13,810 bases of DNA. Origin: an uncultured Bacteroidales bacterium (GTDB lineage: Bacteria > Bacteroidota > Bacteroidia > Bacteroidales > Muribaculaceae). The stretch lies in assembly GCA_945828175.1 (NCBI GenBank), contig CALZQD010000015.1, positions 1 to 13,810 on the forward strand, in the 5' to 3' direction. Numbering within the stretch: position 1 is the stretch's first letter; each line of letters begins with the position of its first letter. The position numbers were made by a program, and so were the translations under genes. This document shows positions 3,334 through 10,585 of the stretch, piece by piece. The notes under the pieces were generated by a model that saw only the letters and a program-made list of their open reading frames with translations, had not been told where the DNA came from and searched no databases.

Positions 3334-6300
3334 TTAGCGGCAGTCGAGGGTGCGGCCTGAGCTGTGGGCTGTGAGAGCCGGCTCGAGGCTGCTCTGCACC
3401 GTCGCGATGCCGGAGGTGAATTCACCCGCGAAGCCGACGGTCATCTCGGTCGTAATCTGATAGGTGCCCTTCGGCATATAGCCGACAAACAGGCGGGTGT
3501 CAGTGTCGTTGTTCTCGCGATAGAAACCGAGACCGGCGCTGTAGACATATCCGGGCAGCTGATTGACAGGCTCGAACGACGCCGGACGCTCGTCAATCAC
3601 TGTGACATACTCGAGGTCGCGGTCGGCCTTGATGGTCAGAAGCACTCTGACGCGGTCGCCGAGGCGTAGGCTGTCGGCATACTCCCAGCGGTCGCCGCGC
3701 TGAACGGTCAGACGCTTCTCTATCGACAGGCCGTCGCATTTGACAGCCTTGACGTCGGCCGAGGCGCTGACATAGCGCGAGATGACGGCACCGTAGGCCG
3801 GGCCGGCGGCGTTGTCACGCACGACGGTGAGCTTCTTGCCCGAAGCATCTGTCGGCAACTGTGCAATCAGATGGCCAGTGACAGGCTCGACCGAGCCGAC
3901 GCTTACCGGCTCGCCGCCGAGTGTAACTACGGGAGCGGCATCGCTGATATTCCAGTCGCTGCCGGTCATCTCGAAAGCCGCAATCAGGCGAGTCGGGTCA
4001 AACGAACCGAGGCGCGATGTAGCCTGACCGCGGACGACGAGCCACTGGCGCATGCCGTCGATGGCCGACGACTGCGGCTCGATGCGGGCGAAGGCAAAGA
4101 GCAGGTCGGCATAGCTGTCGACGCTCGTGACCGAGGGGAACGACGTACCCTTGTCTTTCGAGCTGACGCCGAACTGTGCGACTGACTCCATCAGCTGTCG
4201 CGACATAGCCTTGAAGCCGAAAGCGTCAAGCACGATGGCGGCACGGGCCTTGTCGGCTGTGCCGAATTTGCGGTACTCCTTATTTATATATGCCGTCGTG
4301 GCGTTGACAATCTGACGCTCCTTGAGGCTCAGCTCATGGTCGGGGAACATCGCCAGAGTCGACGACAGGCCGAGGTCGGGATAAATCTTCGTGGTCTTCG
4401 AGTCGAGGAAGGCGAAGGCCGATTCAATCATCGCTTTGAGCTCTTTGTCGGCCGGCATCATGCCGATTGCGTTGAGCTGGCCGAGTGAGTAGAGGGTCGA
4501 ACGGGTCGACCAGACGTTGCCCTTGCTCTCCCACTCTCCCCAGCGCCAGCCGCCGTCGGCGGCTTTGAGGGTCTTGAGCTTACTGATTGAGGCGGCCATG
4601 TTGCGCGCGACTGCCTTGCCGTCGAGCAGCGCTACGAGACGGGCCATGCGCTCGCTGTCGCTCTGCGCGGCCTGAACCCACGGGGTCTCGGTCAGCGCTG
4701 CAGTCTTGAGATCTTCGTTCTGGCTCAGGCGCGAGACGAGAGCCTGCGACGCGCTGTCGGCGCTCCATGTCTCAATGGCGCGGGCGAGTGCCGGATATTT
4801 CTTAAGCAGACCCGAGCTGACAGCGGCGCCGAAGAGGCGGCGCGCTGCTCCGGTCGACGTATATGACTCGCATACAGCGAGTGCGGGCAGCTGTTTAATT
4901 ACCTCCCGGGCCGGCGAGGCGTTATATTCGAGCGTCACCGATTCCATCTTGCCCTTTGGCAGCTTGACGCTGTAGTCGCTCACGCCGGGATTGAGATAGA
5001 AATTGTCGCTCTCGATGACATCAGAAGTCGACGGCATCACGGCGATATAATCCTGCTCGCCGTCGCTGAAACGACCTGCTGTCGAGCGCACGCGGTAGCC
5101 TATAGCCGAGGCGTTGCCGTCGGCTGCGACCTCTATCATGACGGGAGCCGAAGCCATCGGGGCGATGGTGTCAGTCGACGTCATGCTGCGGGTCACGGCT
5201 CCGCTGTTGGTGTCGAAGATTTCGACGACCGTAGTGGCCGTGATGGTCGAATCGCTGTTATTGAAGACATTGGCTATCAGCTGCACCTTATCGCCGGCGC
5301 GCAGGAAACGCGGCAACTGCGGCGTCACCATCACGGGCTTGTTCGATATAATTGATTTGAACAGCGTTGCCGTGCTGACATCTTTGGTCCAGGCGAAGGC
5401 TCTGAAACTCCATGTGGCGTTGGCGTCGGGAACAGTGAAACTGATGACCGAATTACCCTCGGCATCAAAAGTCATGTCAGGCTTCCAGAACGCCTGCAAA
5501 ACCTCACCCTCGCGATACTCGAAGTTATCGGGAACATCAGGAAGATTAGTGCTCTCAACTGTCACATTTTCCACAATATCAGTGGAGTAATCTTCCTTAG
5601 CTGCTAATCCATAAGCTACCATCGGTTTTTCCTCCAATGTCAAACCGGCGTCAAAATCCACCTCTTCTTCTGATACAGCCATTGAATTCTTGGCCATTGC
5701 TTTAGTGCCGCGAATTCTAAGCCTTGACATACGATAGTAATCAATCGTCGGATCAAAACGTGGCGCTCCAATAGAAATTGTCTGATAGTAATTATCAGCA
5801 TGACTGATACGTCCTGACAGCATGAAATTCCTTGGATATGAGCATCTAACCGTTGGCGATTCAAAATAAGATACAATACCACCCCACTGGTAAGATTTCA
5901 TGGCATCAAGTGCTGCATTATACATCGTCGCAACAAATGCTCCATGAGAAGGATGACCTTTATCCTTGAAATTCAATGTCCATCTCTCGGCGCTGCCGGG
6001 CAATAGTTTATCTCTGAAAGTTGAAACCGTAATAACCGGAGCCTGTGCCGAAGCACGTTCAATAACATATGTTTTATCGAATATTTCGCCATCGCGAACT
6101 GTATACAGCAACACTCTGCCTTTGTCATAACCATCGGCGAGCTTAAAGGAATATTTATGGAAACCATATTTAGCCTCCTTCATACCGATGGAAGTTACAT
6201 TGCTTCCGTCATTGAAGGCTGAATAGACATATGTAGTTCCTTTTGCTGTTGTTCCGACTGTTATAGTAAATGTGCCGTCTGTGTCAGCAGTTATCTTCGG

Positions 6301-8805
6301 GCTACCCGGTATGAAAAACGCATCCTTTGATTCAGGCATCGTATTGCGGGCGATGCTGTAGAGGGCGACATCGACGGTCGTCGTATCAGCCAGCGCCGTA
6401 TCAACGGGCCAAAATGACAATTTATAATTATCTGAAGCGAGTTTGCTGAAATCGGCCGACAAGCCCTTGACTGATGAAAATTCGCCTGAGGCTTCGACGG
6501 CAGCGCCCTCTTTATCGGCCTTGATTGACCAACGCAATGGAATCGACACCGTGTTATCATCAGCATCAATGACTCTTACCGCGACAGTTTCAATCATATC
6601 GGTATTAATTTTCTGATCGCCATCGCAATATATCACATAAGGTTTGCCAATTGAGAAGTTTCTTTGCGCATCGACGCTTTCGCCATCTGCAGACGTTACC
6701 GTAACAAGGCTTACAAAGAGTTTATATTCCTCATCTTTAAAAAAACTTTTGGGCAAAATCAGCTCGAAACAGCCATTTGCGTCAGTTCGAGTGTCAAGAT
6801 GACCTACTGATGATAGCGGATACAATGAACGCCAATACAATTCTCTTGCACTAACCTCAGCATGCACTTTGGCCGAAGCAACAGGCATTCCGGCATAGGT
6901 CACAGCTCGTCCTTTGATTGTCACTTCGTCTTTCGAAGGACAGTCACGTTTGACTGAGTCGATGTCGACTTTAAACGTTTTGAGCTTAAAATCGCTGACA
7001 GTTATATATTTATTGCCGATGTAATTATACCAATATTTTGCATTGGCGGCATCCCTTGCCTGCAGACAATAATTGCCTGTCAGCAGTCCGTCGGGTATCT
7101 TGAACCGTCCTGTCGCACGCCCATAGCTGTCGGTTGTCACAGCAACCGAGTCGACAAGTTGTCGGTTGGCATCAAAGAGCGAGACAATAGTCTTATAATC
7201 AGTCTTGACTTTATGGCAGTCCTTATTCTTAGGACTATCGTACACCATGACAGCCCAGGCGACTGAATCACCGGGATGATAAAGGGCTCTCTCAGTAAAT
7301 ATCTGAGCATAAGTTCTAACTGTATCACCCTCTTGATATTGATTCCTATTAAAGTTCGGCGTCGATGGGTCGTCGAAACATGTATATGTGATTCCGTCCT
7401 TTCTATATGTCAGGGGCGACCAGTTTGAATACTTTATAAGACTTTTCTTTATCTTAAGCCGTCCGTCGGCATTGCTTTTGCCAAGTCTGACGGTCTGCTT
7501 CTTCTGTTTGGCAAAAACCTCTACATCAGCAACGGGACGTCCGTCCTCTATATCCATAATACACAGTTCAGGTGCATTTCCCTCTATCAGGAAAGGAATA
7601 AACGGCACGGCACTGACTGTTATACCACGCCGTTGTAGCCCGCTGATACTGTCACTGAAAGCGGGTGCTATATAATAAGCCCCCGGCTTTGACAGCGTGG
7701 CTGTCAAGGTCGTATCGCAATCTCCCTGCAAAGCGTCGGTATCAATAAAATAGCTGTCTATCTTATATTTAGAAAAATCTTTCACTTCGCTGAGCGAAAC
7801 GCCCTCGGGAATCTTGCATACTATATAGCCGGCACGAGGCGTAAAAGAATAATTTACTGCAAGTTTAAACGGTTTTCCGACAGATACATATTTATAACCA
7901 TAGAGAACTACCGACTTGGCTCCTATTCTATTAAGATTATTTTCGAGCTCATTAATAAACACGAATTGCGGATAGGCCGCGACATATTCTTTCAACGCAT
8001 TGAAAATCGGCCCGAAAGACTTTTTATAGTCACTTACTCGATTCGTGAGTTCCATAAGCACTATACCTGAGGCTTCACAATCTTTATTAGCAAAATAAAG
8101 CTCTTTGAGATTATCTTCCCTCGTATAACCATTATCCAATAGCTTCACCTGCCAGTTGAACCAGGGGGCTGAGCGGCGGGGGCTGCGGGCGAGGGCGCGG
8201 CGCATCGGCTCGGTGGCATCGCCGTTTTGCGTCAGGCCCGATGCCTTGAGGGCGATAAAGTCGTAGACGGTAGGATAGAGGTAGCGCTCTGTGGCTCCGG
8301 CCGTGATAATGGCCGAGAAGTCGGCGAGCGGCTGACGGCCGGCGATGCTGTCGAGCGCCATGGCATCGTTGACGAGGCTGTCGATAACGGCACGGAACTG
8401 GCGGCCATTCCACTCCGAGATGTCGGCCGGCAGCGGTTGGTCGGGCGTACTCACCTGATTATAGCGGTAGGCGTTGGCGTTATAGATGCTCGAATAGATG
8501 TCGGCATCGATTAGGCTGACGAGAGCCTTGACGGCAGGGTCGCTGATCTGACGGGCGACGCTGTCGACGAGAGCCGGAGCCGTGAAATAGTTCTCCATAT
8601 CGACAAGGCCGCGGGCATAGACGATGTCGAGCAGGCACTCGGCGCGGCCGATGTCGGCTTTCTGACCCGTGGCGCCGTCGAGCGACGACAGCCGTTTCTC
8701 GCAGTCGGCTATAACCGTCTGAGGATATGCAAAATCGGGCGTTGCAGCCGACAATCCCATAACGGCCGCAATCGTTAGTAGTAGAGTTGAAATCGCTTTT
8801 CTCAT
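3334..8805 (-). CDS. Secreted bacterial alpha-2-macroglobulin family protein, thioester site degenerate
   Basis: This 1823-residue envelope protein has a Sec signal peptide at residues 1-20 (MRKAISTLLLTIAAVMGLSA) with no lipobox cysteine, so it is probably soluble in the periplasm. An MG2-like strand pair (FTERALYHPGDSVAWAVMVYD) sits near 496-516. A bait-like linker lies at about 1025-1090, followed by the A2M signature FWKPDMTFDAEGNSVISFTVPD near 1104-1125. TPQLPRFLRAGDKVQLIANVFN is near 1157-1178. A helical toroid spans about 1290-1560 (GGWRWGEWES near 1425), and the C-terminal macroglobulin domain has GDRVRVLLTIKADRDLEYV near 1713-1731. Family members trap attacking proteases. Active ones carry CxEQ, whose Cys and Gln form a thioester. 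Here C1312 is followed by E-S-Y, so the Gln is absent and covalent trapping is unlikely. Codons for about residues 220-1090 are far more AT-rich than the flanks. The frame is unbroken. No convincing TAnnTTTG box is seen upstream. Specific role unknown. Confidence 0.9.
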   Translation of the reverse strand: MRKAISTLLLTIAAVMGLSAATPDFAYPQTVIADCEKRLSSLDGATGQKADIGRAECLLDIVYARGLVDMENYFTAPALVDSVARQISDPAVKALVSLIDADIYSSIYNANAYRYNQVSTPDQPLPADISEWNGRQFRAVIDSLVNDAMALDSIAGRQPLADFSAIITAGATERYLYPTVYDFIALKASGLTQNGDATEPMRRALARSPRRSAPWFNWQVKLLDNGYTREDNLKELYFANKDCEASGIVLMELTNRVSDYKKSFGPIFNALKEYVAAYPQFVFINELENNLNRIGAKSVVLYGYKYVSVGKPFKLAVNYSFTPRAGYIVCKIPEGVSLSEVKDFSKYKIDSYFIDTDALQGDCDTTLTATLSKPGAYYIAPAFSDSISGLQRRGITVSAVPFIPFLIEGNAPELCIMDIEDGRPVADVEVFAKQKKQTVRLGKSNADGRLKIKKSLIKYSNWSPLTYRKDGITYTCFDDPSTPNFNRNQYQEGDTVRTYAQIFTERALYHPGDSVAWAVMVYDSPKNKDCHKVKTDYKTIVSLFDANRQLVDSVAVTTDSYGRATGRFKIPDGLLTGNYCLQARDAANAKYWYNYIGNKYITVSDFKLKTFKVDIDSVKRDCPSKDEVTIKGRAVTYAGMPVASAKVHAEVSARELYWRSLYPLSSVGHLDTRTDANGCFELILPKSFFKDEEYKLFVSLVTVTSADGESVDAQRNFSIGKPYVIYCDGDQKINTDMIETVAVRVIDADDNTVSIPLRWSIKADKEGAAVEASGEFSSVKGLSADFSKLASDNYKLSFWPVDTALADTTTVDVALYSIARNTMPESKDAFFIPGSPKITADTDGTFTITVGTTAKGTTYVYSAFNDGSNVTSIGMKEAKYGFHKYSFKLADGYDKGRVLLYTVRDGEIFDKTYVIERASAQAPVITVSTFRDKLLPGSAERWTLNFKDKGHPSHGAFVATMYNAALDAMKSYQWGGIVSYFESPTVRCSYPRNFMLSGRISHADNYYQTISIGAPRFDPTIDYYRMSRLRIRGTKAMAKNSMAVSEEEVDFDAGLTLEEKPMVAYGLAAKEDYSTDIVENVTVESTNLPDVPDNFEYREGEVLQAFWKPDMTFDAEGNSVISFTVPDANATWSFRAFAWTKDVSTATLFKSIISNKPVMVTPQLPRFLRAGDKVQLIANVFNNSDSTITATTVVEIFDTNSGAVTRSMTSTDTIAPMASAPVMIEVAADGNASAIGYRVRSTAGRFSDGEQDYIAVMPSTSDVIESDNFYLNPGVSDYSVKLPKGKMESVTLEYNASPAREVIKQLPALAVCESYTSTGAARRLFGAAVSSGLLKKYPALARAIETWSADSASQALVSRLSQNEDLKTAALTETPWVQAAQSDSERMARLVALLDGKAVARNMAASISKLKTLKAADGGWRWGEWESKGNVWSTRSTLYSLGQLNAIGMMPADKELKAMIESAFAFLDSKTTKIYPDLGLSSTLAMFPDHELSLKERQIVNATTAYINKEYRKFGTADKARAAIVLDAFGFKAMSRQLMESVAQFGVSSKDKGTSFPSVTSVDSYADLLFAFARIEPQSSAIDGMRQWLVVRGQATSRLGSFDPTRLIAAFEMTGSDWNISDAAPVVTLGGEPVSVGSVEPVTGHLIAQLPTDASGKKLTVVRDNAAGPAYGAVISRYVSASADVKAVKCDGLSIEKRLTVQRGDRWEYADSLRLGDRVRVLLTIKADRDLEYVTVIDERPASFEPVNQLPGYVYSAGLGFYRENNDTDTRLFVGYMPKGTYQITTEMTVGFAGEFTSGIATVQSSLEPALTAHSSGRTLDCR

Positions 8806-8935: not shown

Positions 8936-10585
8936 TTATTTATTCAGGCCGCACGATTTGCATTTCTCTGAAATCTCGGTGAAGAAGTCGTTGCCCTTGT
9001 CGTCGACGAGGATGAATGCGGGGAAGTCTTCGACCTCGATTTTCCAGATTGCCTCCATGCCGAGCTCGGGATATTCGAGAAGCTCGACGCTCTTGATTGA
9101 GTTCTGAGCTAATACGGCTGCAGGACCGCCGATTGAGCCGAGGTAGAAGCCGCCGTGTTTGTGGCAGGCGTCGGTGACCTGTTTCGAGCGGTTGCCTTTG
9201 GCAATCATCACCATAGAGCCGCCGGCCGACTGGAACTGGTCGACATAGCTGTCCATACGGCCGGCCGTTGTCGGGCCGAACGAGCCTGAGGGCATGTCTG
9301 CGGGAGTCTTGGCCGGGCCTGCGTAGTAGATGGGATGGTCTTTGAGATACTGAGGCATCTCTTCGCCGCGGTCGAGGCGCTCTTTGATCTTGGCGTGGGC
9401 GATGTCGCGGCCGACGATGATCGTGCCGTTGAGCGACAGGCGGGTCGAGACGGGATATTTCGTGAGTTCGGCGAGAATCTCGGGCATCGGGCGGTTGAGG
9501 TCGATCTTGACGACTTTGCCCTCGCCCTGACGGCGATATTCTTCGGGAATGAGTTCGCCGGGATTGCTGTCGAGTTTCTCGATCCAGAGGCCTTCACGGT
9601 TGATCTTGGCTTTGACGTTGCGGTCGGCCGAGCAGCTGACGCCGAGACCTACGGGGCAGGATGCGCCGTGGCGCGGCAGACGGATGACGCGGATGTCGTG
9701 GGCGAAGTATTTGCCGCCGAACTGTGCTCCGAGACCGAGTTTCTCGGCTTCGACCTTGAGCTGGCGCTCGAGTTCTTTGTCGCGGAAGGCGTGGCCCAGT
9801 TCATTGCCGTGGTCAGGCAGCGAGTCGTAGTATTTGACCGATGCCTTCTTGACTGTCGCGAGGTTCATCTCGGCCGATGTACCGCCGATGACGAAGGCGA
9901 TGTGATAGGGAGGACATGCGGCCGTGCCGAGCGATTTCATCTTCTCGACGAGGAAGGGAATCAGGGTCTTGGGGTTGATCAGGGCCTTGGTCTCCTGATA
10001 GAGATATGTCTTGTTGGCCGAACCGCCGCCCTTGGCTACGAAGAGGAAGTGATATTCGTCGCCCTCGGTGGCGTGGATGTCGATCTGCGCGGGCAGGTTG
10101 CAGCCGGTGTTGACTTCGTCGTACATGTTGAGCGGAGCGTTCTGGCTGTAGCGCAGGTTGTCGGTGGTATATGTCTTGTAGACGCCCTCAGAGATGCGCT
10201 CTTCGTCGTCGCAGCCGGTGTAGACGAACTGGCCCTTTTCGCCGTGGACGATGGCTGTGCCGGTGTCCTGGCAGAAAGGCAGCTGACCCTTGGCGGCGAC
10301 TTCGGCGTTGCGGAGCATCGTCAGGGCGACAAACTTATCGTTCTCTGAAGCCTCGGGATCGCTCAGAATCTTGGCGACCATGGCGTTGTGCTCGCGACGG
10401 AGCATAAAGGCGTTGTCGTGAGTGGCCTGACGGGCAAGCACTGTCAGCGCCTCGGGGTCGACGACGAGGAATTCGTGACCGCCCCAATTCTCGACTTTAA
10501 CGTAGTCTGATGTCAGATGATAGTATTCGGTTGTATCAGGTCCGAGGGGAAACATCGGCTGATATTTGAAAGGTTTTGTTGCCAT
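8936..10585 (-). CDS. Class I fumarate hydratase ([4Fe-4S], FumA/FumB type)
   Basis: The enzyme converts fumarate to L-malate reversibly in the cytoplasm. In anaerobic Bacteroidota it usually runs in the reductive direction, feeding fumarate respiration and succinate formation. The 549-residue protein is the fused form, with an alpha part (about 1-330) and a beta part (about 345-549). The three cluster ligands sit at C105 (LPFCQDTGT), C224 (TAACPPYH) and C318 (GVSCSADRN), the same residue numbers as in E. coli FumA. The substrate-binding block KGGGSANK is at 185-192. The beta-domain block [21 protein letters not shown] is complete. It follows serA by 43 nt with no promoter-like box between them, so it is probably the third gene of the serC transcript. 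It ends at a terminator hairpin. The long open frame on the plus strand at 9335-10348 is a shadow. The symbol could be fumA or fumB; I leave it blank. Confidence 0.95.

Follow-up and report, generated by a model that had tools for sequence, protein, structure and literature searches.

An alpha-2-macroglobulin without thioester motif in a Muribaculaceae-type gut bacterium, the core of which is probably exchanged as an allelic cassette

The gene described here is probably a single-copy, thioester-less alpha-2-macroglobulin (A2M) the core of which is an allelic cassette undergoing exchange in place by recombination, its diversity being maintained by selection. It was found in a stretch of 13,810 nucleotides (hereafter: the window) from the assembly of an uncultured Bacteroidales bacterium of the Muribaculaceae. 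A sequence-only reading of the window had proposed that the interaction half of the protein was replaced by recombination, and this is strongly supported by: i) discordant trees for the three parts of the gene; ii) near-identical ends that are combined with different core classes; and iii) shared junctions. The features that are referred to in the following are given below; P0001 and P0003 are two of the close relatives that are introduced further on.

3334..8805, minus strand: bacterial alpha-2-macroglobulin gene, 1,823 amino acids, with Pfam domains, without CXEQ thioester motif, single copy in the assembly
8143..8805, minus strand: segment A, residues 1-221, third-position G+C (GC3) 0.75, containing most of the N-terminal helices and conserved within the group of the ten closest proteins
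5527..8142, minus strand: segment B, residues 222-1093, the core cassette that is exchanged, with the last helices, the MG domains and the bait, GC3 0.41
3334..5526, minus strand: segment C, residues 1094-1823, the conserved end from A2M/PF00207 to bMG10, GC3 0.76-0.77
8140..8145, minus strand: 5' junction, after ...RRSAPWFNWQVK, with the GC3 break and the identity break between the window gene and P0001, five further pairs having theirs within 2 residues
5524..5529, minus strand: 3' junction, before DNFEYREGEVLQAFW, with the GC3 break and identity breaks
5512..5748, minus strand: bait-like disordered linker, residues 1020-1098, pLDDT below 50, acid-rich in most homologues
5533..5676, minus strand: stretch in which only the bait is exchanged, residues ~1044-1091, window gene versus P0003, identity 0.94 / 0.22 / 0.95
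7036..7302, minus strand: MG2 domain (PF01835, Pfam), residues 502-590
5233..5493, minus strand: A2M domain (PF00207, Pfam), residues 1105-1191, the first domain past the bait
3379..3732, minus strand: bMG10 domain (PF17973, Pfam), residues 1692-1809
8936..10585, minus strand: class I fumarate hydratase (FumA), the upstream neighbour

The step in composition was located with a maximum-likelihood two-break model of GC3 along the 1,823 codons. The best breaks were found at codons 221/222 and 1093/1094 (window positions 8142 and 5527) and separate stretches with a GC3 of 0.75, 0.41 and 0.76-0.77, the values for the neighbours of the gene being 0.69-0.84. The gain in log-likelihood amounts to ~118. 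The maximum was 9.4 in 100 shuffles of the codon order and 48.1 in 55 other genes with a length of 450 amino acids or more, on twenty contigs of the same genome. The next strongest mosaic among these 55 is a gene of 1,172 codons on contig C1 (L106:359-3875, minus strand; GC3 0.45/0.78/0.44, gain 48). The limits that had been read from the letters for an AT-rich block (5530-8140) lie at most 3 bases from the model breaks and the reading frame is indeed open across both composition changes. The ten 60-base rows for which G+C had been counted by hand were all correct (30-42% for seven rows inside the block, 57-82% for three outside), although they were somewhat selected relative to the means over all rows: 43.8% (range 30-60%) for the 42 rows in the block and 61.3% (range 48-82%) for the 45 rows of the gene outside of it.

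The Pfam domains MG2, A2M and bMG10 follow each other in the window protein with scores (41.2, 60.9 and 89.1 bits) that exceed the curated cut-offs in all three cases, and the same domain order was recovered in P0001, P0003, P0005 and P0009 (in P0005 the MG2 score of 31.9 bits is just below the cut-off of 32.8). Two AlphaFold2 models, of residues 21-420 (pLDDT 92) and of residues 205-1200 (pLDDT 82), were used to place the junctions. After a start that is signal-peptide-like, as judged by eye, the predicted helical run comprises residues ~27-294 and the strand-rich MG domains begin at ~298; the block therefore contains the last helices, followed by the MG domains and almost the entire bait. 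The earlier assignment of the block (about residues 220-1090) to the MG domains and the bait holds in this form for residues 222-1093, with the amendment that the last N-terminal helices are included. The 5' junction was rejected as a domain border, because in the model it sits at the end of a helix within the helical run. A stretch that is predicted to be disordered (residues 1020-1098, pLDDT below 50) occupies the bait position, immediately ahead of the PF00207 domain, and the 3' junction precedes the end of this stretch by five residues. The half of the protein with the MG domains and the bait is predicted to have the A2M/complement superfamily fold, as its model groups with the A2Ms of E. 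coli and Salmonella, human A2ML1, CD109 and complement C3/C5 (Foldseek, VIA).

The thioester motif CXEQ is absent from the window protein, in which the aligned site reads AVCESY, and was found at the aligned thioester site in none of the 214 rows of an alignment of homologues (146 proteins were kept in it; P0150 and higher were left out, as were, for their length, P0020, P0115 and P0147). Elsewhere in the sequence CXEQ occurs in 18 of the 214 rows, in 14 of these at one place in the core that is equivalent to window residue 409 (L005, P0043-P0047, P0050-P0052, P0054, P0056, P0057, P0066 and P0072). This CXEQ-like match lies far from the thioester site and probably arose by chance and is shared by descent. 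In the distant relative L089, a CXEQ located ~50 residues from the aligned site, within that region, possibly represents a true thioester site that was misaligned. The presence of a bait in the window protein was judged from the disordered stretch at the bait position. The baits are acid-rich (at least 5 D/E in 10 residues) in 180 of 213 rows, versus 3% of the control windows; a trypsin-like basic site was rejected as a conserved bait feature, since a cluster of at least 4 K/R within 10 residues is present in 24% of the baits (52 of 213) versus 23% of the controls.

Relatives were retrieved by a protein search with segment C, in which the ~8,000 candidates sharing most words were scored (best 120 of 387 matches). 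Among the matches listed there are nine public proteins that are 87-99% identical to segment C (P0001-P0009); the public proteins compared are mostly derived from metagenome assemblies. With respect to the window gene, the nine are 78-98% identical in segment A and 87-99% in segment C, and within the matrix of all ten proteins the identities are 76-100% and 84-100%, respectively. The cores of the same ten proteins fall into three classes: class I (window gene, P0003, P0006, P0004, P0008 and P0009; identity within the class 0.60-0.92), class II (P0001 and P0002; 0.87) and class III (P0005 and P0007; 0.79), and between the classes the cores are only 34-42% identical. Near-identical ends enclosing different cores were thus found in the pairs window gene/P0001 (A 0.98, B 0.34, C 0.99), P0002/P0003 (A 1.00, B 0.34, C 0.97), P0007/P0009 (A 0.97, B 0.42, C 1.00) and P0005/P0006 (A 0.97, B 0.41, C 0.98), where it should be noted that P0001 begins at a later Met, giving an N-terminal identity of 0.91 in the fit of breakpoints versus 0.98 in the matrix. 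The cores that are alike on different backgrounds are those of P0001 and P0002 (0.87), P0005 and P0007 (0.79) and the window gene and P0003 (0.92). As one core class occurs on different backgrounds, fast divergence alone is insufficient to explain the pattern. A search with the core as query returned six of P0001-P0009 among the matches listed (93, 87, 65, 63, 61 and 41% identity). P0001, P0002 and P0005 were not among them, partly since only candidates sharing most words were scored, and the absence of P0005, with a core identity of 42%, implies that absence from these matches is weak evidence.

Separate phylogenies of the three parts, which had been put forward as a check on the replacement, did not yield the same tree: in AU tests (IQ-TREE, 17 sequences; parts A, B and C) each part rejects the trees of the other two, with p at most 3.6e-6 in all six tests. 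The data of A reject tree B (p 3.6e-6) and tree C (1.0e-7), those of B reject tree A (7.6e-56) and tree C (3.1e-72), and those of C reject tree A (5.9e-76) and tree B (3.1e-6); the discord between A and C is expected if the flanks recombine too. At the level of sequence, exchange of cores between strains is shown by these comparisons. When species are compared, the highest conservation is that of segment C in 67 of 67 genes. Segment A is more conserved than the core in 58 of 67, on the whole only slightly, and is lower or equal in 9 of 67, so that the 'constant frame' formed by both ends is limited to close relatives. A core that merely evolves faster, without any exchange, would account for this ranking, but unless the protein records are wrong it is refuted by topology: the core of P0001 is 34% identical to that of the window gene (C 99%) but 87% identical to that of P0002 (C 95%), and the AU tests argue in the same direction. 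We therefore attach almost no probability to it. Nearly as improbable is that the pattern was created by assembly chimeras joining cores and ends of different organisms. This could be suspected as the sequences stem mostly from metagenome assemblies and several genes of the genus are split across contigs, but the same arrangement recurs in clusters with several members or contigs (P0003: 15 members, 40 contigs; P0005: 62 members), the arrangements are non-identical (core 0.79-0.92 between the closest members of a class) with near-equal junctions in different species, and the proteins are in frame, though broken ones would escape a search aimed at long proteins.

The exchange of cores left junctions at positions that could be determined by fitting identity breaks in 15 protein pairs. 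The six core-swap pairs within the species complex, which are not independent because P0002 enters three times, gave breaks at 221/1093, 221/1093, 221/1094, 220/1092, 221/1095 and 219/1096 (numbering of the first member), and those between the window gene and P0001 (221 and 1093) coincide exactly with the codons of the independently determined GC3 breaks. Outside the complex the breaks were found at 224/1103 (P0046/P0057), 191/1112 (P0063/P0061), 193/1115 (L016/P0061) and 182/1102 (P0120/P0106). L010/P0024 has one break, at 1088 (A differs too and the L010 gene is cut short), P0090/P0099 has a break at 1180, and L021/P0089 has a 3' break at 1073 next to a 5' break that is a start-site artefact. 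According to these positions, the 3' junction recurs and the 5' junction is less constant outside the species complex. A composition break within 20 residues of 1093 is present in 9 of the 16 strongest GC3 mosaics of the 68 genes (a descriptive count); L013, L019, L021, L025 and L080 have such a break near residue 1093, the bait end, despite a much weaker core contrast. Shorter stretches were found as well. Between the window gene and P0003 the breaks lie at 1043/1092 with identities of 0.94 / 0.22 / 0.95, so only the bait differs much, and the bait of P0003 resembles, by eye, those of P0004, P0008 and P0009; between P0077 and P0075 they lie at 1084/1106, delimiting a stretch within the bait. 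Exchange of the bait alone is shown for one pair of this complex, the window gene and P0003.

The low G+C content of the core had been attributed to a lower-G+C relative as donor. We compared the drop in GC3 (mean of A and C minus B) within a set of 68 unique homologous genes, the window gene included, from which 19 duplicates and 7 loci with open frames of at most 1,400 codons had been omitted. The drop was largest in the window gene (0.35), followed by L010 (0.22), L002 (0.17), L026 (0.17) and L017 (0.14); among the other 67 genes (median 0.017) the drop deviates from zero by no more than 0.07 in 59 and reaches 0.10 in 7. For the proteins we used a linear proxy of the drop based on amino-acid content and fitted on 67 genes (R2 0.48, 0.75 and 0.59 for A, B and C). 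It predicts a drop of 0.13-0.26 for all nine of P0001-P0009, P0008 being the weakest, and exceeds 0.15 in only 9 of 146 proteins, namely eight of P0001-P0009 and P0014 (= L002). By DNA, AT-rich cores were identified in the window gene, L002 and L010 (sister lineages), and all three core classes look AT-rich (the window gene by DNA, classes II and III by the amino-acid proxy). Since the proxy gives a drop in all nine relatives, the AT-rich core is most likely a lineage property of the cassette pool and older than one swap. Such a pool could possibly derive from a low-G+C origin, or from weaker G+C-biased conversion in cores that are too diverged to recombine.

That the core was imported once and recently from a relative with lower G+C, the composition step marking foreign DNA, is consequently unlikely in our estimation. 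The core GC3 of 0.41 does fit the AT-rich tail of the genome (18 of 165 sampled genes have a GC3 of at most 0.42) and the sharp composition steps do coincide with the exchange junctions. Against the import count that the three core classes in the ten related proteins look AT-rich (nine of them by proxy), as do the sister cores of L002 and L010 by DNA, that at least one other lineage, L016/P0061, swaps cores with a flat composition, and that no donor was found: among the ~8,000 candidates scored per search, no protein outside the species complex exceeds 34% identity in the core. The donor claim is therefore not supported and composition was rejected as proof of a recent foreign import. The composition profile is largely shared by the close relatives and so is an older property, the situation that the sequence-only reading itself had named as a sign of an old property of the gene rather than a swap; the swap is shown by phylogeny instead. 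Several low-GC3 genes were also noted on contig C11 of the same genome (L116), in a run near 0.3 that includes one glycosyltransferase-like gene (first residues, by eye) and that is likely an exchanged polysaccharide locus.

The neighbours that could be named in the window are MltG, a TrpB-like protein, FumA, a SerA-like protein and SerC. In 17 of 29 testable loci of the genus FumA is the immediate upstream neighbour on the same strand, and it was rejected as a neighbour that is found everywhere; in L038, which represents the L002 locus over a longer stretch, SerA and SerC are also present. Both ends of the contig (window 1-47 and 13765-13810) carry an adapter end that we take to be Nextera/Tn5, and the terminal LpxD-like and LpxH-like frames end artificially because both run into it. 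Carriage by phages was confirmed for none of 43 pattern matches, and the search for plasmid carriage gave 8 records, the best with 27% identity over 57% of the core. The simplest reading is exchange in place at a fixed chromosomal site. Within the genus 48 of 49 genomes have a match, mostly one copy or one split copy, and within the family 144 of 149 sampled genomes, and 108 of 109 of the better genomes (query P0090), with few having more than one copy. The four sampled genomes of genus g50 (G097, G117, G136 and G152), two of which are less than 80% complete, are without a match. In G001, G032 and G036 the gene is distributed over different contigs and lacks a part that lies within the core or spans it, which could result from assembly stumbling on strain-variable cores.

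The nearly fixed places of the junctions could also be produced by switching within one genome, from silent cassettes or by an invertible locus, and P0090 and P0099, with segment C 97% identical, look like two copies on one contig. Nevertheless, no second copy was found in the window's own assembly (G000, 82% complete) with the window gene, P0001 and P0005 as queries, which argues against silent cassettes in the assembled part of this genome, and of three imperfect inverted-repeat pairs of 13-17 nt (minimum length 13) none has its arms at both junctions. Switching thus appears quite improbable. P0090 and P0099 are probably two copies in one genome, judging by the equal length of their contigs (53,219); they are 43% identical in segment B, with a C part that would be homogenised from residue 1180.

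The extent of core exchange was surveyed in the 214 rows, which are the best matches to the window gene, so that the counts of clusters do not represent a family-wide rate. At a segment C identity of at least 0.93 the rows form 31 clusters of at least two, 21 of which are not mere duplicates. A pair with a core identity below 0.70 is present in 7 of these 21 informative, species-like clusters and absent from the other 14; two of the seven represent the window gene's own species complex. Both ends are conserved (A 0.86-0.98 in the most discordant pair) in three of the seven: the window gene's cluster, P0007/P0009 and P0045-P0057. In the four others segment A is diverged as well (0.51-0.79; L016/P0061, L010/P0024, P0075/P0077 and P0090/P0099) and the exchanged stretch may therefore extend further there; P0075/P0077 is borderline with a core identity of 0.69. 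In the sister group, L010 and P0024 are 0.97 identical in C and 0.35 in B: the C tree joins the two (support 100), while the core of L010 groups with that of L002 (support 100) and the core of P0024 with those of P0016 (98) and P0027. By these groupings the core classes of the sister group cross species borders, either by old polymorphism or by transfer.

MagD of Pseudomonas aeruginosa, a Type II A2M without thioester, traps a protease non-covalently after cleavage of its bait, and bacterial A2Ms of this type often occur in a six-gene mag operon, as described in the consulted part of PMC5764988. The window protein is like MagD, and like Type II in general, in that CXEQ is absent and a bait (judged by disorder) is kept, but no mag operon was seen among the neighbours in the window, and allelic core cassettes go unmentioned for MagD in the same part of PMC5764988. 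The best bacterial relatives among solved structures are Type I A2Ms (E. coli YfhM/ECAM and Salmonella A2M; 5a42, 4u48 and 4ziq), which carry CXEQ according to the consulted part of PMC5764988, unlike the aligned site of the window protein. The nearest evolutionary parallel is TEP1 of Anopheles gambiae, which, in the portion of PMC2576239 consulted, is reported to have alleles that are strongly diverged as a result of genetic exchange, the source being other TEP loci of the same genome. TEP1 belongs to the same superfamily and diverged allele classes with a mosaic history are also present in the relatives of the window gene, but TEP1 draws on paralogues, whereas the window's own assembly (82% complete) yielded no second copy, and classes of the L010/P0024 type cross species. 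The VARTIG proteins of Thermococcales are likewise large (Ig-domain) proteins of which one part is hypervariable by recombination in place, in this case between species; they differ in protein and organisms, and it is their C-terminal domain that varies (PMC8416519, consulted part). Titles and starts of abstracts in the open-access PMC literature gave no description of allelic cores in bacterial A2Ms, and no mention of macroglobulin was found in the consulted part of PMC12916291.

In the explanation that we favour, the gene would encode an alpha-2-macroglobulin without thioester that is exported by a Muribaculaceae-type gut bacterium and in which, among close relatives, both ends would form a nearly constant frame around residues 222-1093 as allelic cassette, with at least three old core classes in the species and its sister species. 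The cassettes may move between cells by homologous recombination in the conserved ends while the chromosomal place remains fixed, the bait would additionally be exchanged alone, and frequency-dependent selection may keep the diversity, as the protease or other ligand that the protein meets would depend on the cassette. By analogy with MagD, the protein may act by trapping proteases, with the cassette setting bait and shell. Selection on the interaction half is plausible. The divergence spans the whole 870-residue core and not the bait alone, more than the choice of a protease would need; it favours a wider role in recognition, whereas the bait moving alone favours the protease reading a little.

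A cassette that varies as a putative surface target (phage receptor or antibody antigen), and not for protease choice, would fit variation across the whole core of 870 residues. The S-layer gene slpA of Clostridioides difficile has a divergent allelic cassette with recombination through conserved flanks and cassette switching. SlpA is a possible analogue, though an unrelated surface-layer protein. Exchange of only the bait is not specially predicted for a general surface target, and we judge this alternative to be rather unlikely, albeit with appreciable weight.

A composition step on its own does not reliably indicate an import; in this gene the step seems to characterise the cassette pool and not the swap. 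That the bait-bearing half of a near-universal gene is replaced within species points to the part that is under pressure, and the exchange of cores suggests an evolutionary contest with something in the gut. The natural allele pairs, with equal ends and a different core, offer a means to find the target. We tentatively extend the explanation to the family: the macroglobulin of the Muribaculaceae, near-universal and usually single, might possibly be a polymorphic recognition locus with old classes that cross species, swaps of the cassette and separate swaps of the bait, and frequency-dependent selection. If true, it would be a bacterial counterpart of TEP1 or MHC-type polymorphism, setting the proteases or rivals that each strain resists.
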